A DNA stretch of 64,000 nucleotides, from the NCBI GenBank assembly GCA_021014945.1, contig MU266431.1, positions 1 through 64,000 of the forward strand. The letters are read 5' to 3'. The stretch is from Leucogyrophana mollusca (Eukaryota > Basidiomycota > Agaricomycetes > Boletales). Each line of letters begins with the position of its first letter. Positions within the stretch are counted from its first letter, which is position 1. Shown in pieces: positions 4,239 to 54,600 of the stretch. The notes beneath the pieces are model-generated. The model saw only the letters and a list, made by a program, of their open reading frames with translations, was not told the DNA's origin and searched no databases. The position numbers and the translations under genes were made by a program.

Positions 4239-6237
4239 TCAAAACCCGTACGGCGCCGTCCGCCGAATGCATTTCGGCTGCGGCCTCTTCCACTCATCGT
4301 TGTCGATGCTGGACCTTGGTTTTCCAAACATTGGAGGTTGCGTTTCTGGAGGAAACTCGAGTGGCCATGTTGGAAGGTAACAAATTTCCTGCAAAATCTA
4401 AGCTATGAGCGAACACGTCCAACTTCTGTGACAGTCATCTCGCGCCTCGATTGCCTGCCGATGCAGAACTCACCTCGAAGCCGCATTCTGGTCGGCACTT
4501 CACCCACACACTCCAGTCGAGCCAACTCATCAGTCCACTCAGATCGCCCCTCCATTGTCGCAAGACCTTTGCAATGTCGCTCATCTCTGCATCCACGGAC
4601 ACCGGCAGATAAGTGTCCATTCCGTTGACTACCCCTTCCGCTCACATCTGCACAACAACACGGCAGATCTCACGTGAGGTCTCCTGAGCGGCGCGCAGCA
4701 TCAGCCTCTCGGAAGATGTGAGCGCAGAGCCAAATTCGGAGACAATAGTTGCGGTATGTGTTGTCGCACACTCCCTGAATACAGGCTCGGCCCAGGTAAG
4801 ACCCGTCGCAGGGGAGCTTAAAGAATGCGTAGGAATAGACGAGTGTAGGATATATGGCGTGAGCATGATCCGCAGCTGTAGCTGGATCTTCGACGCTCGT
4901 TCCTTTTCGTCTTGATGGCGCCCGAAGTTGGAATTGGTTTCGCCGAGGAGGTATTGCAACAGCTCTAGTCTGTCCGCATATCGTTTGATGATTACACGAT
5001 ACAGTGTTCGCCAGTCAACTCCGCTTCCATCATGGTGTTCGCTCAGAGCTTTCGAAAGTCGCATTCGCACTGCTGCTATATCAATAGCGTCCGCACCCTG
5101 CAAGCGATGATCCCATCTTTCCTGACCGACGCGGTGGGCAACGAGGCTTGGAACGAGCTCAGTATCATAGAAGGAAATAAGGCGAGTGAGATCAAGGTGG
5201 ATGCGCTCATCACCCGGATAGCGGTTGTGCCAATGTCCACCATTCATCATCTCGAATGTGCGGAATGCAGCACGCCCTTTGCAACATTGTCACTGCGGAA
5301 GCTGAAGGGCCAGGAGGAAGTCAACCTACCACTGATCGGCGGCTGATCACTCTCCAAGGCTGGTAGGGCGGGGAGGTTCAGAAAAGAGACAACCCTAACT
5401 CCGTCGGATGTAAAGTTGCAGAGCATAATCTCGCTGGTCAGAACGGTCTATGGTGAGGGGAATCATTCCATTAGCAAAAAGTGAAGGAATTCTTACAAAT
5501 TCTCTTCCATTCTTTTCACAAACGTTCATGAATAAATCTTAAGAGGAAAGGTATACTATGGCGCACTTACCTCACGAAGCCATCCAGGGAATATTGCTTT
5601 CCCCATGCACACAGATCCGCAATCCGACCATGTTCATCAAACGTTCGATCAGGCCTGAGTTCGCCCCACGCGACGAAATCTTGAGCGTCCATCGTCCCGC
5701 CTTCAAAATCCGCTCCGCTGCTTCCATCGAAATACAGGAGTTGGAGGGGCCGGGTGGTTGCGAGGGTCAAGTGCCAGCATCCGGCCTCTATAGTTCCACG
5801 ACAGAAACCGAGCGAGTGTTCTGCGTCGGTTGCTACCCACTCAGGAACAGCGGGAACAACGCTTTGGAAGGTGCCGTGATAGAGCAGGGTGCCGGGTGGC
5901 ACAGTTGCTGGAACAATGGTATGTCCTGTGATGCTGATGGATGAGGGGCACGTTTAAGGGACGATATTCTAGCCTGATACTCACCATTTCGGTAGCGAGT
6001 GTTGGGCCAGTGCTGAAGCAACGAACTTACGGTTTCGAAGATAAGGTGCCCTGTTGCATTAGCGCTGGGAGGTTCGTCAAGGCGCCATTGCTCGGAACTG
6101 CCATCGGTGCCACCATCTTGGAATATCTTGATTGCTGGTGTTTCTTCAAAGGTCACACCCAAGGGGATCTGCACACCCCGCGCCCACGCAGCAGCGTTGT
6201 AGGTCAAGATGAGGGGAAGGAAATTCTCCCAGCGCAT
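4239..6237 (-). pseudogene. Secreted protein of unknown family, copy 1, with in-frame TGA
   Basis: Member of a basidiomycete family of unknown function (remembered as recurrent in Agaricomycetes; no function is known to me). The ATG at 6237 begins a signal-like leader (MRWENFLPLILTYNAAAWA). Next come the block around HWPNTRYRNG, an intron, and a very conserved domain (5567-5900) with LLYHGT, WHLTLATTRP and LYFDGSS. The helical domain (4642-5250) has SFYDTELVPSLV, ERWDHRLQG, DWRTLYRVIIKRYADRLEL and REICRVV. Last is a C-terminal block ending PQPKCIRRTAPYGF before the stop at 4239. At 4642-4644 the frame meets TGA where the related sequence at 6.6-7.1 kb has Trp (RMWAEG), and the homologous C-terminus stays readable downstream for another 400 bases. 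A splice solution around 5290-5330 is also hard to find. It is either a recent pseudogene or a C-terminally shortened protein. Confidence 0.68.
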
Positions 6238-6610
6238 GAAAAAGCAGGATCGAGGGTGACAGTTCAAATATCCGCTCAAGCGCAACTCAAGCGCACCTAG
6301 ATATCAACGAAGAATGTGCATAAGAATGTTCGGTAAATGTTATTATTGGCACTTATCTTCGGTAATGTAGAAGCGTCTTGCGGCTATCTATAGTTGACTT
6401 CTTGAAAGATAAGGCCTGAAGGAGGGAAACCGAATAGGAACCTTGTTAGAGGCAGTCCAGACGAGCACTCAGCTAGGCCAGTAGTGTCGCGCTATTTTCG
6501 CTTCTCCGGGATCACTGCAGCTCTCACATTTCCAAGCAGTGGACGCCAAGGTTGGAAGACAATAGTATGCACCTCAATCATATAACACTTTATGTTCGTC
6601 CTTAACCGAG
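6238..6610. other. Intergenic, no gene seen
   Basis: AT-rich spacer between the start of copy 1 of the secreted family and the 3' end of the interrupted copy. It should contain the copy 1 promoter. No other signal is seen. Confidence 0.5.
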
Positions 6611-7117
6611 TCAAAATCCATAGGGCTCTATTCGCCGAATGCATTTTGGCTGCGGTCTCTCCCATTCGTCATTGTCCGTTTGACCATGCACTTCCGCAAC
6701 TTTTCGTACGTCCCAATCTAGGGATGTCGGTTTCGGGGGATCGTCCTTCTCAGGCGGAAACCCGATTGGCCACGTCGGAAGGTAACACATCTCCTGTGTG
6801 AAGATAAGAATAAGTTGGCCCATCCAGTCATGAAGATACACTTTGTCAGATGATTGATGTCGCAATAACACATACCTCAAACCCACATGCAGGTATGCAC
6901 TTTATCCATACACTCCAATCAAGCCACATCATCAATCCACTCAACTCATCTCGCCACCCCCGCGTCAGTGTCGAGATGTTGGAGTGCACAGTCTCCACAG
7001 GTAGGTATGGATCCAACCCGCTCTCCACCCCCTCTGCCCACATTCGGACGATAACGCGGCAAATTTCACGTGTCGTTTCCCGGGTGGCCCGCAGCAGTAA
7101 TCTCTCAGAGGGTGTTA
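6611..7117 (-). pseudogene. 3' part of transposon-interrupted secreted-family gene (copy 2)
   Basis: This minus-strand segment encodes only the C-terminal part of the unknown secreted family. It starts abruptly at the transposon edge with LTPSERLLLRA, continues through REICRVIVRMWAEGV and WLDWSVWIKC, and after an intron (about 6790-6880) ends with CYLPTWP and PQPKCIRRIEPYGF before the stop at 6611. There is no N-terminal half next to it. The missing half is at 13317-14838 on the same strand, and the two halves meet in the same frame across the duplicated target site (ALTPS from the far side, LTPSERLLL here). The split is therefore read as caused by the insertion. Confidence 0.8.
7107..7117. 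repeat. Target-site duplication, left copy
   Basis: AGAGGGTGTTA here is identical to 13317-13327. The last two bases (TA) may belong to the element tip, because both terminal repeats begin TA. The true duplication is therefore 9 to 11 bp. Confidence 0.85.
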
Positions 7118-7240
7118 ATCTCGGCTCCAGATCCTAGGTGCGGCGGACTTTCAATCTGAGGCAAAAAACAGAAAAGATTCACGGGAGAAAGCGCCTACCT
7201 AGGATCTGGTGCATTTCGTGGAGAAGGGGGTAGATCAGCT
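7116..7240. repeat. Left terminal inverted repeat with internal hairpin arms
   Basis: About 125 bp aligning in inverted orientation with 13156-13316. Within it CCAGATCCTAGGT (7127-7139) has an exact inverted partner at 7197-7209, so the terminus can fold on itself. The DUF6589 gene starts about 40 bp inside this repeat, which probably also carries its promoter. Confidence 0.82.
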
Positions 7241-7281
7241 CGGGCCGGACAGCGCCACCTTGTACACTACTACTTTAACTT

Positions 7282-10005
7282 ATGGACGACTGCTACGAAT
7301 GGGAGGCGTTCGAGGCGTTCGAGGACGAAGAAGACTGTGATGACGACTGCCGCTGTGCAGGCTGCCTCTTCTCTGACAATACCAGTGATACCAGTGACTA
7401 TATTTCTGATTGCGAGGAGGAACCTGGTGACCCCATTCAAGTCGAGCACACTCGGAAACTCAGAGCTCAACTCGAGGGCAAAGATCTCACTCCGGCCCTT
7501 CTCAACATCATTTCCGCGATTAAAGCAGAAGGATTGAACCTCCCGCTCTTTCTCGATGCTGTATGCTATGGCTACGAGACTCCCAACGCCACCATCCGCT
7601 ATGCCCGAACGTCTCTTCTCGTTAGCGAGGAACTCCCCGCTATACTTGAGCGCTGCCTTCGGCCTCCACGGACCCATAATAAAGGCAAACGACCGGTTGG
7701 GGCAAAGCGCTCTCTTGAGCAGTTCTCTGTGCGCTGTGTCAAAGACTTGATTCAGCGTGACATGGAGAAGGTCTCCGTACATTTCCTTTCCCCTCCCGAA
7801 GAGCTAACACAGGAGCACCTCACCAGCTTTGACTTTGCGGAATTCATCGAGCTTGTCAAGAGTGAGGTCCCGCTTCTGTGGGATTTTCTTGATCACACGG
7901 CTTACAGTCAAAAACAGCGAGCGCGTAACTCGACGAAAGGCTCTGACATGGTAAGATTATCATAAATCATTCAGCACAACTCCTGATACTGACGTGCACG
8001 ATAGGTAACACTACAACTCTTGTCGCAGTCGCAGTATACACGTTCCCATCGTCGCGGGCGTATCACCAAACTGTGGGCTCTGTATCTTAAGGCTTGCGGT
8101 CTCTCTGCTCGTGCTTTCGACGCACTTCACGCACTCGGTGTGGTCATGAGTCACAAATGGACCGCGAACGCCTATGGCGATCTCTCCCGCACTGCTATGG
8201 ACGAAGCTCGACTGGAGATCCAGCGTTCTCCGTGGATTATCTCTCACGACAATGTGAATATCCCAATGCGCGTCTTCTCGCAGCGCCTCCACAACCAAAG
8301 TCATTTCATCAGTGGTTGCGCAGCCACAATCTGGGTCCTTCCTCGCGAAGCCCTTCTCCCCCCCGACACCAACCTTTCTTTCCAACAATATCGTGCCGAC
8401 AAATGCGGGGAGCCTTTTTCGTACGGCGATGTTCTTGACGGAGACCCAGTAGCCCTCGCCCGCATCAAAAAACGGCATATATACCATGTTTTACAGATAT
8501 TGCTTCAGTCTCCCGACTTTGTAGACTACGCTAGTCGCAATCATGACCTTTTTAAACCCCCACCTCCCGTTCGCGAGCTCCCCTGTGGACCCGAGTATAC
8601 TGTCAAGCAATTTATTCTCGGTACGGCCGATATTGAAGAAGCGAGTTACGAAGGCAATGACAAAGTCGTTGCAGAATGGTTCCGCCAGGGCGGTCTCGAT
8701 AGCGAAGAGGAGAAAAAGAAAACGGGAATGGCACGAGTAATCCCATGGATTGGCGACCAGATGACGGTGGAGAGATTGCGTGGGCTCTGGAGATACCGAC
8801 ACGAAGAATTCAATTCCTTCGACCGCATGGATTACCTGATCCCCGTGTTTGGGTGGTTCCATCTGGTCATGGCGTTCGCAAACTCCCTGCACAAGCAATA
8901 TCTTGGGACGTCAGCCGGCATCGGAGGACTGCAACAAGCCTTTGACGTACTTCAGCGTAAAGGGCTTCAGAAGGCGGAGACGAAGGGGCCGTTTTGGCAC
9001 CATCTCGATGAAGCTCTTCATCATGTCAGCGAGGCTCATTTGCGTGCGTGTTGGTTAGCTGTAGGGAAGGTGAAATCACTTACCGACCTCAAAACCAAAT
9101 CACCGAGAGATCTATATGATCTTGCAGTCAAGCTCGTCGACGAAAACGCGTCTCGCAAAGCGATTGCTCGCTTGGAGCATCTTCCCGAAAGCAATCGTGA
9201 CCATGTAAAGAGACAGTTCACGATGTTCAACCATGACGTGCTGGTGTACATAGAACTCACCGATGCTATTCGGAATGGTGATGTGGGGCGGATGGAGGAC
9301 TTGCTTCCCATCCTACTGATGCGCTTCGGTGGTGGTGGGAATTCCAAGTACACTATTGAGATGCTTGAGCTTCTCCAAGGACTGCGACGAGAATGGCCAG
9401 AAGTTATCAGGTAAGGGATCGGGGGTATGTTGGACCTGGTAACTATAGAACTCACCGCAGTGCAGAAATCATGTTCGCGACTATTGCTGGCTTATCAATC
9501 GGTCTGGAAAACGCTCCGGATTTTTGCCTATAGACCAAGGCCAAGAGCAAAACATTCGCGACATCAAGGTAAGCTGCACTGGCTTTATGCGATCACGAAC
9601 TTCACGACTCACAAATTTCAGGTGACATATCACTCCTTTGGTCCTGGTGCGACGTGGGCGTATCTGCACAAGGTGTCGCCTGCAATACCGACCTTGCGAG
9701 CATTACAGCGCCACATGGACAGTGAGTTTGAAACCATAACTCGAGGTGCACGCCATGGAGTCCCGCAGAAAGAGCTAGACGTGACAAAACTTACTGATCA
9801 GTATGTGAAATCGGGCCTACACGTGTATGATGCTGGACGACAGATCAAAAGTGCGAAAAACAAAGCCGAGGACTTCCTAACAAAAGGTGTGGTAGACCTG
9901 GAGCGTCTGGGGACCATAGATACCTGGTGGAAAAGCCGCTCGTATGCTCGATTCACCAGCCAGGATTGGAACGAGAGCACCCAAAGTCTAGCTGGTCAAT
10001 TTTGA
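7282..10005 (+). CDS. DUF6589 protein, candidate transposase of the element
   Basis: Four exons (7282-7950, 8005-9410, 9466-9568, 9622-10005) give an intact 853-residue protein. The N-terminus is very acidic and holds a cysteine cluster (C4, C19, C23, C25, C28). The body matches my recollection of DUF6589, a basidiomycete-expanded domain of unknown function: YTRSHRRGRITKLWALYLK, ALGVVMSHKWT, SHDNVNIPMRVFSQR, IPWIGDQMTVERLRG, FGWFHLVMAFANSLHKQYLG, HHVSEAHLRACW and FGPGATWAYLHK. Three acidic residues lie in conserved-looking blocks: D305 (SHDN), D474 (GDQ) and E566 (SEAHLR). They could form an RNase H-fold DDE centre, as in many cut-and-paste transposases; this is inference, not shown. It lies inside terminal inverted repeats, convergent with a RecQ helicase. 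Family membership is confident; the transposase role is likely but unproven. Confidence 0.85.
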
Positions 10006-10058
10006 AAGCATTATGTATGTACATCAGGGATAATACATCTGAATCGAAAGTCTGTTAA

Positions 10059-13043
10059 TTACGAAAGGTCTACCACGAACAAGCATAAAGTACTCACCAT
10101 GTTTGAATACGTCCCACGAGTATCAACGGCAGACGGCCAGGTGCGCAGCTGACCTGGAGTAGTACTCGTGGTGACTGAGTGCTGAGGATAAGCATGCTGA
10201 GTAACAGCGAATTCTCGTCCACCGCGAGAAATCCACGGTGTTCCACGAGTATCAGGCCAGCCCGGCAGACGTAACGGTTGTATGGTGGGCTCTGAGGGTG
10301 TAGATGGAGGAAGCGGATAAGCCGGGGTGCGAGAAAGGACTGAGGATTGTGGAAAGGACGTCTCGAAGTGGTTAGGTGTAGATGGAGTGAGAGGGTAAGC
10401 CAGAGTGCGAGGAAACACTGAAGACTGTGAAAAGTTGGCCTCGATGTGGTTGCGCTGAATTCGCACTTGATCGAATGGAGTGCTGGGTGGAGGCGGGAGT
10501 GCGGTGAGTGCGGTAGGTGCTGATACTGTAGATGGAGTAGATGGTGAAAGCGGGTACGGGCGGCTGCGGCTGTTCTGATGCGTAGGTACAATGTGGGTGG
10601 GGATGTGGGGATGTGGTGTATGCTGAGATAAAGGCGTCGCAAGAGGTTGGCATGGGGTAGAAGGGTACTGAAACCGTCTTGATGGGACATAGCAGGCAGA
10701 CATATTCAATGGAGGAGCAGCCGGAGTGGAGGTATTTTCACGAGCGCTGATGCTCTGAGGCATCAGTGGGTCCAGGGCTGGGAGGGATGCGTGGACAACA
10801 ACACCTTGATTTTGTGTGTCTGACTGGGTAAGCACCTTCGCTTTCTTCGAGCGTGATGGACGAGGCGGCTTGGGCTGGCTATCCTTGATGGCTTTGAGAC
10901 GGGCACGCTCAGCCTTCTCTGCCTCCTTCTGAGCCGCCTGACGCTGAGCTGTTTCCGACTTCTTCGCAGCTGCTCTTGCTTCCTGCTCTGCGGCCTTCGT
11001 CCTCTCATGGTCCTTGTCATACTCTTCTAACATCTTAACCACCGCCATCCCATGCTTCATTACACGACTCGAACTCCATCCGATTCCTATCAGGTCATCA
11101 ACGCTCTTGAGCCGACGACTGTTTGCGATCTTGGTGATGATTGCGTCCGGCAGCAAGCCCTCTGGTCCATAGGGCCCTTCAGAATACAACTCCATCCAAA
11201 CCTCGTACCTCCAATTCTCCAGCAATGTACGAGCACCTTTAAGATGCTCTTCTCGGCGAGAAGTCGGACCAGAAGGCTGGGCTTCTGTGACTGAGGTGCG
11301 TGCTGATACCATGATTCGTTTTCCGTTGCGCCCGGGGGTTTTGCTGGGAGTCGAAGTAGCAGATGAGCCGGGATGAATACAGATGTTTGGAGGGGTCTGT
11401 GGTCGTTCAGCGAGGGCTTTGGCAAGACAATTATCGCAGCAAGTGCCTGTAGGAGCTGTACGGTGGAGTTTGTGTTGCCACGTTAAGCACTTGAGCAAAC
11501 CTAACGCAATCACACGTCTAGCGCCGAACGTACGTTTTCTTTTTATCCCACTATCAAAATACTCATCTGCGACATCACGCCGGCACTCTTTCGTTTCGAT
11601 CCATTCTCGCAATCCATCCTCCACCTGTTTCACATATGTCACAGTGCCATCATCGTCATCTGGATCCTTCCCTTTCTTTGTGTGCTTTTCCTGAAAGACT
11701 GATGGTTGTACAAGTAGAATTGCGCGCGCTTGCATGATTGGTGACCTTCCTGCGCGACCAGCACGTTGCATCCAGATTGACAGTGATGCAGGAACCATGA
11801 ACTGGACAACCTGCACGATATGCGGCATGTCACATCCCTACACAATACTCGTAAGTTGACCGGTTCCATTCTCGCTACACAATGCTCTCACCATTCCTGC
11901 AGCCTCAGTCGTGAATAGCATCTTGATTTTACCTTCTTTAAAGAGCCGAAGGATGATCCGCTTTGCTGCAGGTGTACGTCTTGAATGATAGACTGCTACC
12001 TGGTGTCGAATGTCAGTAGGTGAGTTCTTGCGTATCCATTGACACGCGGCCATCGAGACGTTGATGTCATCGAAGAATACCAGGGACTGGTCATAGGTAT
12101 CTCCATCGACCTCCCCCCCACTGCTTTTTGGAAGCAGGAAAGAGAGAGACTCGAGGTCAGACTTTCCGTTCTTCATGTGTCGAACATGCCATGATATGTT
12201 CGGGCGGTCGGTACCTAGGTTGATATGGTACGAGTCCGAGGTTTGTATATGGGCCACGGTGCGGACCTGCGCAAGGGTAAGTGGGGGGAGTGTCGCAGAG
12301 GTGACCAGAAATGGGACATTGCTGGGAACAAATGCTCGTAAAGTACCCAGCTGCATGTAAAGTTCGCGAAATTTGTCTCCCCATTGGGAGATGCAGTGGG
12401 CCTCATCAATTACGATGGCTGCTATACGTGCAGCGAACTTGGGATTGCTGAGAAGCTGGCGGAATTTCTCGTGCTGCAAGCACATCTCTGGCGAGGTAAT
12501 GATGGCTTGAAATTTGTTATTTTCGAGCTCCTATATGGGGAAATGAGATACTGAAAGCAACACTACACTTCGAACTTGCCTTGTGTAGTGTAGTAGTATA
12601 AGTCTCCCCGTTGACTGCAACTGCTGTCAATTTCATTTTTCTGAACCTCTCAGCCTCGAAGGTCATCAGACAAAGAGATAAAGTTCGTGAAAGAGAGACT
12701 TTACCTGGTCCTCCTCTAGGGCATTCAGTGGAGATATCACTATGACAAGCTTTTCGGGATGCACAAACAATGGCATTACGAACGGCATTGTCTTGCCAGC
12801 TCCGGTACCCGCAATCACAGAGCAGTCTAACCCCAGTACAAGAGCTTCTGCAACGTCTATTTGCCAGCTGTGTGGGACCATATTGTTGTTGCGAGCCATA
12901 AACTCGTCACAGATCTTTTTCCGAGTTGCTGCAGAGTCATACTTACGACTCTTTTCTGCCTTGTTGCGTGCATCCTGCAATATTCTGGCTGCTTTCTCCT
13001 GGCTTCTCTCGTGAGAACTGATGCGAGAATGCACAGGGGCCAT
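10059..13043 (-). CDS. RecQ-type DEAH helicase carried by the transposon
   Basis: Superfamily 2 3'-5' DNA helicase. Exons 13043-12705, 12654-12580, 12530-11892 and 11837-10059 give about 943 residues. The motifs are an upstream Q motif (HSWQIDVAEALVLG), Walker A AGTGAGKT (residues 78-85), DEAH (180-183, in IDEAHCISQW), TSATLP, VFFDD, TEAAGMGCDMP, and motif VI QRAGRAGR (375-382). A zinc-like cysteine pair (TCCDNC) follows. The last 350 residues are an Ala/Lys/Glu coiled stretch and then a Pro/Ser/Thr-rich tail with two near-identical repeats around SSVxxRTxAYPLxPSTP. Intron 2 appears to be GC-AG (AAG before GCAAGT). A donor-like ATG/GTGAGT near 10098 could add a short last exon, so the C-terminus is uncertain. 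It is convergent with the DUF6589 gene. The role in transposition is unknown. Confidence 0.86.
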
Positions 13044-13155
13044 TTCGACAAAGAAGCAGACGTCCGAATGGAGAAAAAGCGGCCCAGAGACAGCGTGTAC
13101 GATGAAGTCAACAGGCCAAAGATAGCAAAGAAAAGCTGTGGGTCTTGCCCACGTG

Positions 13156-13316
13156 GTCTGATCTACCCCCTGCTATACAAAATGCACCAGACGTTATAGG
13201 GCACGAATCCCTGACAGAACTTTCCTTGTTTTTTGCCTCCGACTTCAAAGTCCGTACTGATAAGATTAGATAATATTCTGGCAGGGACGTGCCCTATAAC
13301 GTCGGGAACGAGACTA
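13156..13316. repeat. Right terminal inverted repeat with internal hairpin arms
   Basis: About 160 bp aligning in inverted orientation with the left end, and longer by a few insertions. It contains a perfect 16 bp inverted pair (GACGTTATAGGGCACG at 13190-13205 and its complement at 13288-13303). The positions correspond to the left-end arms although the sequence differs. It lies just upstream of the helicase gene start. Confidence 0.82.
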
Positions 13317-13327
13317 AGAGGGTGTTA
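13317..13327. repeat. Target-site duplication, right copy
   Basis: AGAGGGTGTTA directly follows the right terminal repeat and matches 7107-7117 base for base. Removing the element plus one copy restores a continuous frame of the interrupted gene at this point. Confidence 0.85.
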
Positions 13328-14838
13328 GTGCAAAGCCAGAGTCAGACACAATTGTTGATGTGTGTGACGTGCGCACTCTTTGAATACTGGTTCAGGCCAC
13401 GAAAGCCCTGAGGCGGAGAAGTTGGAAGTGGGTATAGGAATGGACGAATGAAGGATATATGGTGTGAGCATGATTCGAAGCTGTAGCTGAACCTTCGCCG
13501 CTCTCTCGTACTCATCGTGAAAAACCTCAGAATCGGAATTGGCATCATTGAGGAGGTATTGCACCAACTCTAGTCTTTCTGCGTACCGTTTGATGATCAC
13601 ACGGAATAATGTGCGCCAGTCGATTCCGCTAACCTCCAGGCGTTCGCTCACGAGGTCCCTTGCCAGTCGCCTCCGCACCGCTGCTATGTCCGCAGAATCT
13701 GCGCCCTGCAGGCGATGGTCCCAGCGTTCTTTGCCAATGCGGTCGGCGACAAGGCTCGGAACAAGGTCAATGTCATAGAATGAAATAAGCCTGGTGAGAT
13801 CGAGCCGGATGCGTTCCTCCCCAGGATAGCGGTCGTGCCAATGTCCAGCATTTATGGCCTCAAGAACCCGGAATGCCGCTTGGTCTTGAACGAGATCAGC
13901 GTTGCTGCTGCTAGGGGTTAGTGACTAGCACAGGCTCACTCTGACTTGGTGGTATACCCTTCTCCAGAGCCGGGAGTTCCGGGAGGTTCAAAAAAGAAAC
14001 AACTTTGGCTCCGGAAGTGAAGTTGCAGAGCATGATTTCACTTTGAACGACCCAAGGTCAGTGAAGCCGATATAGAAGAAGAGGGTTCTTACAAGTCCCA
14101 TTCCATCCTATCCACACATACATCAACTTAGAAACATTGAGTAGTGACCAGGTCACTACCTACCTTATGAAGGCGTCTAGCGAATATTGATGTCCCCACG
14201 CACAGAGGTCGGCAATTCGCTGACGTTCGTTGTATGTCCGCTCAGGCCTAACTTTGCCCCAGGCAACAATATCTTGGCTATCTAGTGGGCCGCCCATCAT
14301 CTTCGCTGCGCTACTCCCATCGAAATATAGCACTCGGAGCGGTCGAGTAGTCGCAAGAGTCAAGTGCCAACAACCTGCCTGCGTGGTTCCATGACAGAAG
14401 GCGTGCGAGTGTTCTGGATCTGTTGCAAGCCAGTCGGGGTGGTCGGGAACCACGTTGTGATTGGTGCCATGATAGAGAAGGGTGCCGGGGGATATGACTC
14501 CGGGAACAATACTATGCCCTGCAGTGAACAATGAGTCGCAAGTGATGGAGCGTACTAGTGCGACGCTCACCGTTCCGATAACGGGTGTTGGGCCAGTGCT
14601 GAAGCAACGAACTTACGGTTTCAAAAACAAGATGGCCAGTTGCGTTGGCAGCTGGTTCTTTAGAAAGCTGCCATTGCTCGACGCCGTTGTCGTGGTCATC
14701 TTGGAAGTCTTCAGGCCCGAAAGTTGAGCTCTCCGCAACGAAGTAGTGAATTTGGGCATCATTTATCGAGAGTGAGCTTGATAGGCTACTCAGGGTGCAA
14801 GTCATCAGGATAATGCAAAACGCATGCGTCCATCGCAT
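13317..14838 (-). pseudogene. 5' part of transposon-interrupted secreted-family gene (copy 2)
   Basis: The ATG at 14838 (MRWTHAFCIILMTCTLSSLS, a likely signal peptide) opens the second copy of the unknown secreted family. Its parts follow the same order as copy 1: ANATGHLVFETVSSLLQHW, then GTLLYHGTNHN, WHLTLATTRPLRVLYFDG, CAWGHQYSLDAF, a short exon (EIMLCNFTSGAKVV), and the helical domain with ERWDHRLQG and DWRTLFRVIIKRYAERLEL. Homology stops at the transposon edge at 13317. A one-base deletion near 13365 shifts the frame just after FKEC: the expected continuation (SHTSTIVSDSGFALTPS) is readable in the next frame. The gene is therefore broken twice. The rest is at 6611-7117. Confidence 0.8.
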
Positions 14839-15508
14839 GATGGAAGTATTACAGGCTGTGAGTGCCACCTTGAGGGCGTCGGGCTTGCTTCAGAAAAACC
14901 GCGGAATAAATCTGCGTCCAAGTGTCGTTGTCAGCTAGTATTGGGACTCTGGGAGGTTGGTTACTATGGATCAGTGCTGCCGAGCGCGTGTTCTCGTTTA
15001 TTATAGCGCTCGGTTCATGGTGCAATTATTCTATTGGGCACGTTCAGGACTGGCTAAATCATGATTGCACTACATGAATCGTTTGCGCTACAATGTGGTA
15101 TCGTTGTACAGGAGCGTGTCGCTATATATCTTGATGTTGAGTACGTGAGTCCAGAATCGATGTAAAGATGCTGGCGCAATGATAACTTTCTAGCACGTAT
15201 TCAAGTTCACAAGCTTCCAACTTCGAAGTCCACGCTTCTCCGACGCTCTACAGCCCGGCGCGCTCGTTGGTGCCATAATATAGTGAGTGCGGAGCGAATC
15301 ACCGGCTATTTTTAACGAAATGGAATGCTATGTGGGGTAGCCCGCATCATCTTCGACTTATCCACGGTAGTCAGGCGGGAACTGGCGGGAATATCTTTGG
15401 GACAGATAAGAATGTATGTGAACTGGAAGTACGTCCCAGCTTCATTCTGACTGACTGATTTCCAAGCGATCCAGCAAACTGAACTGCACCTTTAGGACAG
15501 CACCAATT
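14839..15508. other. Intergenic, divergent promoter region
   Basis: Lies between the divergent starts of the interrupted secreted gene and the F-box gene. No coding frame or repeat was recognised. Confidence 0.5.
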
Positions 15509-51653: not shown

Positions 51654-54600
51654 TTAAGGTATCGCGTTGACCAAGTCCATATCGATGTAAATATCATCTT
51701 GGAGCGTCATCTCACCCTCGGCAAAGAGCTGTCCAAGATTGACTAAGGCACCAGTACTACTGGGTACACTGCGGCCAGAAACGTCGTCGATACGATACAA
51801 CGATATTTTTGTGGTGAGTCCTGTCCGAAAGAATGTGGGCCGATGCGAGGGACTGAAGGGCATTCGAGCGCGTTCAAGGATATCTGTTCGAACCACGAAT
51901 CCCTTCTTCAGGCCTGTTTGAAAGGCTGTGTCGTCTACTTCTGGGAGCGCGAGGACCACTCGTCCATGCATTTGCGCATTGGGAGCGTGGACGAGGATAT
52001 GCTCGATATAGGCATCCGAAGGGGACCCATAGAGGTAGAACATCATTGTCTCCGGGTAAGCGATCTGCAGGTGTTTTCTGCCAAGAGGCGAGAAGTGGAG
52101 AAGATTTATGTTGGTGATTTCGCACGACATCAGTAGACTGACACAAATTTAAAAACCAGAGCTTCTTAGAGAAATTGGACGCTCACCTGGGTATTGAAGA
52201 ACTGGTGATTTGGACCCTTGCTCGGCCCCTTGAGATAAGAGGCAGTATTTCGGATGGCTCTGTCGTTCTCATTTCGAAACTTGCGCCTGGATGTTGCTTT
52301 CGGACAACAATATACGCTCGCCTCTCCGCCTCTGACATATCCCCCGTTATGGCGAGCTGATACTGGTGACTTGCGATATTGAACGACGCTGAGTATGTCA
52401 TGAAAAGGCGTTCTTCTCCGTGCATCACAAAACTGTGTAAAGAAGGAATGACTGTACTCCTCCGCAAGGCCTTCTGGACATCGAACTAGTTAAGTAAAAT
52501 GAACGGGTGACAAATTTAAGTAACAGCTTACTTCTGCCTCTTCTTCGGCCGCTTTTTGTACCAGATTCGCTATCTTCGCCGTTGTATCCGCCGGGCACGG
52601 GTATGGTGACATGGTAACGAACCGCAAGACAAAAACTGGACCATCTCCAACCAGACCGATGCGTTTCTTGAAATGCACCAAGCTAGCTCCATACTTCTCC
52701 GGAACCAAAAGCGAGGACCCAACGAACAAATCCAAATCATGTATGCAGTCCTCGGGACGTTGCAATGAGAATTTGCCATGTATGCGTGTATTGAGTGCGT
52801 TGGCCTCTACAATGTCTTCGTTGAGCGTTCCGTCAGCTCGGCGGAAGTTAACCGCGAAAGACTGGACGACCAGTTCAGGACCAATTTTCTGGATTAAATC
52901 CCGAGCCTCTGGATTACTGAGGATCTCGTCGTCCGAGCGTCCGACTATCGCATCGAAGATAGCCTGTGTCTCAGCGGCAATCTCCACCTCAGCTTTGCCT
53001 TCAAGCTCGGTGGGTAACATGATGAAAGGAGTAACTGTGACCCGCGAGCTTCTTAATCCCATCGTTACCCACTGGCTATATATCTATCCGCACGGCAACA
53101 TGTTAGTGTGTCACGCGATCAGGGGAACGGACCAAGGTACCTTCACACTGGTGAACATGGCTTCTCCGAGTATGAGTCCATATCCGCCCCGATGCAGGCC
53201 GATTGTCTCATGCGATAACCACGCAGCGACGGCCGCCGCCCCAGGTTTACTGCGGAGGTAAAATGAGCGAGGTCCAACGTGAACATCTTGGATCACCATA
53301 CACACCTTCCTTCCACGCCGAAAATTCCCATTGTGCTACTGTCGGAGTAGCAATGTTCGTCGATGTATGGGGCCGATTTCATCACCAGATACTTCATGTT
53401 GCCGTTCCGATAGCAAAGTGACCCGGCGGGAAAGACGATATACCCTGACTTGTGCGGATCAATTGTGATAGAATCGGTGTAGCGAAGGTGTTCGAGCTCG
53501 TGTTTAGTCCTTGCAGAAAGCGCTATCGTCGGATCATATGTGCCCTTCGCATGATTGGTGCGATCGCCCGCCGGAGCCGACGCAAGAAGGGACGTGAAGT
53601 ACCCTCCCCAAGCAGCGTCTGCGTGAATCAAAAAAGAAAGACCGAGGGCCTGATACTTCCGTCGGAGGCCTATTATGGAAGAAAGTGGGTCAACGAGGCC
53701 CTGTTCGGTGGAGCCGACGATGGCGACAACACCGTAAACTGCTCGTTGGTTATCTAGGCATTCGGCAAGTATATTGTCGAGGCTATCGATATCCATGTGT
53801 CCGGTATAAGCCAGCGGAACCCCCACAATATTTCCCTCTCCAATTCCAGTAAGTGCTCGAAATAGATTTTTATCAGACGGGTATACGACCGAAAAGCGAT
53901 CCGCTCACCAGCCGCTTTGGGCCAAGAGTAGTGCATTGCCTGCGAGATAAGGTATCGAGCTGGGAGCTTTATGTCAAAGTGCGCCTCTAGGGCCTGCTTG
54001 CCCACTGTATCGATCAAATAGGGATTTAAGACTTTTTGCACATGGATCCCCGAGAAGCCAAACTCGTGACAGATGCGGACTCGTAATGCAATGACCTCGT
54101 CGGGGACAAGATTAAGGAGCTCCCACGCGCTGCAGTCGCAGATGGACTTGGTGACACCAGTGCAAAGCACAACTTTGAAGGCAGAAGCGATGGCTTCTAG
54201 GGGGTTGCCGCCCTCGGAAGCCCACTTGAGTGAGAGGGGCAGAAATTTACAATTCCTAGCTAGAAGGTGTTTCAGAAATAATGCAGGAAACGGGTCGTTA
54301 CAGCCTACCAGCCCTATGACAGAAATACCGTGTTAGTGCCCGCGATTGCAAGAATTGCCAGGGTAAATGCCCACCACATAGACTCCAAGTTGGCGACAGT
54401 GCCTCCAGACGTGAGATGGCCCCAAGCATAAATCTTGCCATCAACGGTACCCTCTGGCAGCCTGACGGCATACCCCAGCATACCACAGAGCTGTTGCCCC
54501 ACGACATATTCCAGATGACTCGTGTAGGGCGCGGAATCCGGCGAGATATTATTTGGGTTGTGAATGAGAGCGGCAATGTAGCCAAGCATCCCAGGTAGTG

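Follow-up and report, generated by a model that had tools for sequence, protein, structure and literature searches.

Positions 7116-13316 of the window analysed here, a 64,000-nt stretch of the Leucogyrophana mollusca genome, hold a complete DNA transposon of 6,201 bp that carries two genes, one for a DUF6589 protein and one for a RecQ-family helicase, and is not a chance pairing. With a probability of about 0.87, we read it as an element whose DUF6589 protein, a predicted DDE transposase, cuts at TARTCTCG ends with a 9-bp stagger and is helped by the RecQ helicase, and which is a probable member of AcademH. The initial annotation of this DNA had proposed a complete unit with ends, target duplication and helicase, and we found the ends, the duplication and both genes. 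The window lies on contig C105; this and all similar names denote contigs of one L. mollusca genome (32.3 Mb, 545 contigs).

The element lies between exact 9-bp duplications, with terminal motifs at its tips and inverted repeats further inward:

7107..7115, left target-site duplication AGAGGGTGT, 9 bp (sequence)
13317..13325, right target-site duplication AGAGGGTGT, 9 bp (sequence)
7116..7123, + strand, left terminal motif TAATCTCG (sequence)
13309..13316, - strand, right terminal motif TAGTCTCG, reading inward (sequence)
7205..7238, + strand, subterminal inverted repeat, left copy, 34 nt, 88% (repeat comparison)
13158..13191, - strand, subterminal inverted repeat, right copy, 34 nt, 88% (repeat comparison)

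Together with a second inverted block of 16 nt (7155-7170 and 13227-13242, 94%) and the termini, these repeats bear out the long inverted terminal repeats first claimed. A flanking direct duplication was likewise present, but its claimed length of 11 bp was discarded. The flanks do match over 11 bp (7107-7117 and 13317-13327), and this match consists of the 9-bp duplication plus TA, two bases that begin the left terminus and by chance also follow the right duplication. A length of 9 bp follows from the element on C70 and the short copies described below, which have exactly 9 bp.

The two genes are convergent, as originally described, and after splicing, with exon joins made by hand, both reading frames are free of internal stops:

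7282..10005, + strand, DUF6589 gene, predicted DDE transposase, 853 aa, exons 7282-7950, 8005-9410, 9466-9568 and 9622-10005
10059..13043, - strand, RecQ-family helicase gene, 941 aa, exons 13043-12705, 12648-12580, 12530-11892 and 11837-10059

The DUF6589 protein matched PF20231 in Pfam with an E value of 6e-100. The helicase contains the motifs GTGAGKT, DEAH and QRAGRAGR, matched TIGR00614 (recQ_fam) at E 4e-48, which lies under the model's curated cut-off, and among the solved structures in PDB found WRN as the best match (E 7e-29), with BLM and RecQ also matched. Its proline- and serine-rich tail is encoded by DNA that includes an imperfect 77-bp repeat in two copies (10297-10451, 78%).

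Searches of the whole genome recovered further copies with such ends. The pattern TARTCTCGN{2,5}CCAGACG matched 16 times, against one match for the reversed control, and the looser TARTCTCGN{2,5}CCNGAC 30 times against four; a sister terminus, TAGGCTCGN{2,5}CCAGCCG, had nine matches against none. Besides the window element, exact 9-bp duplications stood behind ends of the TARTCTCG/TAGGCTCG type at the full-length element on C70 (5,433 bp, duplication GGTGCCGAC, TAGTCTCG at both ends) and at five short copies. Among the short copies, those on C49, C79, C84 and C219 have exact duplications, as does a 113-bp copy of the sister-terminus type on C396, and those on C90 and C107 agree at eight of nine positions. 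Counting the window element, the duplication is thus 9 bp and exact in seven copies and 8/9 in two more. For five of the 16 pattern matches (C17, C29, C74, C188:38620 and C225) no partner end with a 9-bp duplication was found, nor was a partner with a duplication found in the DNA examined for C50, C220 and C188:52123. The family of the window element itself comprises one full copy and, on C342, a short and degraded relic that has ends of both kinds but no clean duplication. Nearly the same 84-bp copy, with an identical 9-bp duplication, occurs on C84 and C121, probably through a duplicated segment or allelic contigs, and C121 was not counted apart. On C220 (3428-4350), a nested insertion of 855 bp interrupts the end of a related element; the insertion has inverted ends CTACACGGCC, a TA that is repeated, and inverted repeats in its interior.

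The pairing of the two genes also recurs, as the initial annotation had suggested checking. The Pfam search of the genome gave 33 DUF6589 matches, which we grouped as at least 15 loci on 14 contigs, and at eight of these 15 a helicase of their own lies no more than about 3 kb away. The genes converge in five of the pairs (C105, C70, C188, C244 and C514) and diverge in three (C406, C471 and C306). Conversely, two helicase queries found relatives on 10 contigs, eight of which also carry DUF6589. A second C188 locus with a helicase 2.1 kb away was left uncounted because the two are separated by an element end at 52123. No helicase was detected at C541, C204, C466 and C402, at C220 and C94 (both at contig ends), or at the second C188 locus, where 2.6 kb of contig is left. 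The copies on C406 and C471 share 5,281 identical bases and part at the right end of the element, where different flanks follow. This suggests recent movement of the subfamily with divergent genes.

Insertion into a host gene can be read from the flanks:

6846..7106, - strand, downstream part of the host gene, to the left of the element (sequence, paralogue comparison)
13326..13924, - strand, upstream part of the host gene, to the right of the element; close to the insertion it has a separate frameshift (sequence, paralogue comparison)
4756..5280, - strand, paralogue (69% identity) of the host gene that the element interrupts (sequence comparison)

Further paralogues lie on C44, C29 and C143. 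Among the paralogue loci read, three (two on C44, one on C29) have a single frame that is continuous over the insertion point, and the window flanks joined with one copy of the 9-bp duplication carry on the paralogue sequence (ALTPSERLLLRA...). Therefore, uninterrupted paralogous sites exist. The host gene is thus split at the element's borders, as first claimed, and this copy has in addition a separate frameshift just upstream of the insertion. Two pieces of this gene family scanned against Pfam gave no match above the cut-off. Copies of the family adjoin each other in the window (4756-5280, 5567-6303 and 13326-14900). Taken together, the related ends with 9-bp duplications in independent copies and the interrupted host gene agree with the original proposal that the DUF6589 locus is a transposon.

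The fold predicted for the catalytic region of DUF6589 was compared on a relative from the C70 element (P0109, whose coding sequence starts a short way inside the left end of that element). It had DDE transposases (Hermes, P element, RAG1) as its best matches, and for this reason DUF6589 is very likely the transposase of the element. Together with conserved acids, for which the equivalents of D285, D456 and E656/E659 are candidates, the predicted fold suggests DDE catalysis. A sequence search of solved structures with DUF6589 returned no match below E 0.08. Pfam lists the family as of unknown function; in our literature search the name DUF6589 occurred in no paper found, and PF20231 only in an unrelated context. 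A single query taken from the window had 347 relatives at E <= 0.001 among 7,998 candidates scored, and those named among the 120 of the 347 listed come from mushroom-forming fungi. No relative was confirmed among 36 and 75 pattern stretches from viral and prokaryotic collections, respectively. As a weak lead to pairing elsewhere, three contig sizes (3627, 8164 and 9937) are common to the lists of DUF6589 and helicase relatives (119 and 117 entered), compared with a mean of 0.48 for jittered sizes, at least three being shared in 20 of 2000 trials.

Based on these observations, the DUF6589 protein likely cuts at the TARTCTCG termini and likely inserts the element with a 9-bp stagger. The RecQ helicase carried along probably assists transposition and might do so by opening the ends or by taking part in their processing.

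AcademH is said to have been described by Kojima in 2020 (Mob DNA 11:15). In the passages covered, AcademH elements make 9- or 10-bp target duplications and encode a helicase (PMC10045372), and they are low-copy in Basidiomycota, Ascomycota and Mucoromycota (PMC10799480). Academ transposons more widely carry a RecQ helicase according to the part of PMC3627910 seen, and the corresponding part of PMC6416283 reports that 1,568 of the 1,938 Academ copies in fungi have recognisable domains, such as DEAD and recQ_fam, and that annotation often takes them for host genes. The window element has an SF2/RecQ-type helicase, an exact 9-bp duplication, matched by exact or nearly exact ones in its relatives, and a host in the Boletales (Basidiomycota) with one full copy and one relic. 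Because helicase, duplication length and host fit these passages, the element is probably a member of AcademH, an assignment drawn from gene content, duplication length and host rather than from transposase homology. Neither the end stem-loops nor the divergent gene order of C406, C471 and C306 appears in the AcademH passages covered. Two statements of the initial annotation gave way here: RecQ-bearing Academ elements of fungi with 9- or 10-bp duplications are already in print, so the claim of an undescribed kind lacks support, and the excerpts of PMC3627910 and PMC6416283 speak against the view that RecQ helicases are not standard cargo.

Alternatively, the element could belong to a separate superfamily outside Academ, in which DUF6589 transposases gained a RecQ helicase independently, as KolobokH did. 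RecQ helicases do occur in more than one superfamily, as the part of PMC9587614 seen indicates for KolobokH, the Academ link draws on gene content, duplication length and host, and the domain has the standing in Pfam and in the literature given above. Yet AcademH, as far as the cited passages describe it, fits all features tested here, and we consider a separate superfamily improbable.

Membership in KolobokH itself is much less probable still. Kolobok elements duplicate TTAA, whereas the nine duplications found here are of 9 bp and none has TTAA. KolobokH likewise joins a fungal DDE transposase to a RecQ helicase, which lies downstream of the transposase domain in the accounts covered (PMC9587614), whereas here the helicase has a gene of its own on the other strand. 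However, strand alone does not decide the matter, because a red-algal Kolobok has its helicase on the complementary strand (PMC9587614, seen in part).

MULEs also make 9-bp duplications, but their transposase domain PF10551 was absent among Pfam matches up to E 1 in the window exons scanned, which have DUF6589 instead, leaving this assignment hardly any weight. The hAT elements (Hermes), the P element and RAG1/Transib resemble the predicted DUF6589 fold and differ in duplication length (8, 8 and 5 bp), which sets hAT aside, and in sequence, as no match fell below E 0.08. Helitrons make no target duplication and carry a Helitron_like_N domain, whereas 9-bp duplications are present here and the Pfam scan of the window exons gave no Helitron_like_N. 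Fungal subtelomeric RecQ helicase genes, as the parts of PMC4522978 and PMC5576322 covered describe them, likewise place a RecQ-family helicase in repeated DNA; here the helicase lies within transposon ends and is paired with DUF6589. An ordinary host gene pair with chance flanking repeats can practically be dismissed in view of the multiple copies with related ends and 9-bp duplications and the interrupted host gene.

Both ends of the window element can form a stem-loop, which begins about 9-12 nt from the tip (all found by self-complementarity):

7127..7139, + strand, left stem-loop, outer arm, 13-bp perfect stem
7197..7209, + strand, left stem-loop, inner arm
13288..13306, - strand, right stem-loop, outer arm, 16-bp perfect stem at 13288-13303
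13187..13205, - strand, right stem-loop, inner arm, perfect part 13190-13205

We applied a uniform stem score to 27 ends (25 from the TARTCTCG and sister patterns, two from the window), of which the right end of C84 was too short, leaving 26. Eight exceeded the threshold of 12.0, the highest score among 400 random stretches of the window: both ends of C105 and C70, the right end of C188, C50, and the identical right ends of C406 and C471. The other 18 scored 5.0-9.0, within random DNA, including C63, C106 and C262 (9.0, one sequence family), C541 (8.0) and C402 (8.5) on DUF6589 contigs, C482 (5.0), and ends that are solo or belong to short copies. C220 reached 9.0 as found and 16.5 with its nested insert skipped, and the left end of C188 retains only the inner arm. 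The seven short copies with duplications showed a clear stem of their own at four of 14 ends, with the right end of C79 marginal (14 of 300 shuffles), and their left and right ends match each other over at least 17 nt. The 132-bp copy on C49 is a nearly end-to-end palindrome. An end stem-loop as a general rule was thus rejected, and the stem is not strictly required, because 18 of the 26 ends, including those of some short copies that have moved, score no higher than random DNA.

Where stems are strong, the arms are matched within an end. Ten ends, selected by eye, were put to an arm-swap test. The mean score was 14.2 for own arms, 8.4 for swapped arms and 5.9 for outer arms set against random DNA (maximum 10.0 in 300); the own arm was best in four of ten rows, tied best in four and not best in two. 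The left outer arm of the window element scored 6.0 against its right inner arm, the level of random DNA. Over 12 columns of its left and right stems, five differ on both arms with pairing kept, six are unchanged and one is of another kind. Folding of seven long-copy ends gave modest z-scores of -2.3 to -5.1, with 1 to 19 of 200 shuffles reaching an equal number of pairs. Some long copies therefore keep complementarity within an end while the sequence differs, either through selection on structure or through arm-to-arm copying.

Copying has a nearly even chance of being the explanation: one arm would have arisen as a copy of the other, through template switching or hairpin-primed repair, without function or recognition. 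Copying alone would yield well-matched arms of freely drifting sequence, as seen when the left and right ends of the window element are compared, and agrees with the many ends that lack a stem above random DNA, including those of short copies that have moved. What it fits less well is that all eight strong stems lie 9-12 nt from the tip and start at or beside a CCAG-like motif. A more doubtful proposal is that DUF6589/RecQ transposons recognise their ends as extruded hairpins, the helicase opening the terminus, the stem folding, and the transposase reading structure rather than sequence, so that the two ends could keep private, co-varying stems. Structure-guided end recognition is otherwise known from HUH single-strand transposons, and if hairpin recognition were true, this would be a structure-guided DDE transposon. 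Among the Academ literature matches listed, none dealt with Academ ends by title or start of abstract, the original AcademH description (Kojima 2020) lying outside this scope, and the co-varying end stems may be a new feature. Privately matched stems at the ends raise the question, open to testing, of how a RecQ helicase serves a DDE transposon.

The assignment of DUF6589 as the transposase of these elements may also be new. The chief value of the element lies in a probable function for the large unannotated DUF6589 family, and with DUF6589 read as the DDE transposase of RecQ-carrying elements, such genes would no longer be counted as host genes.
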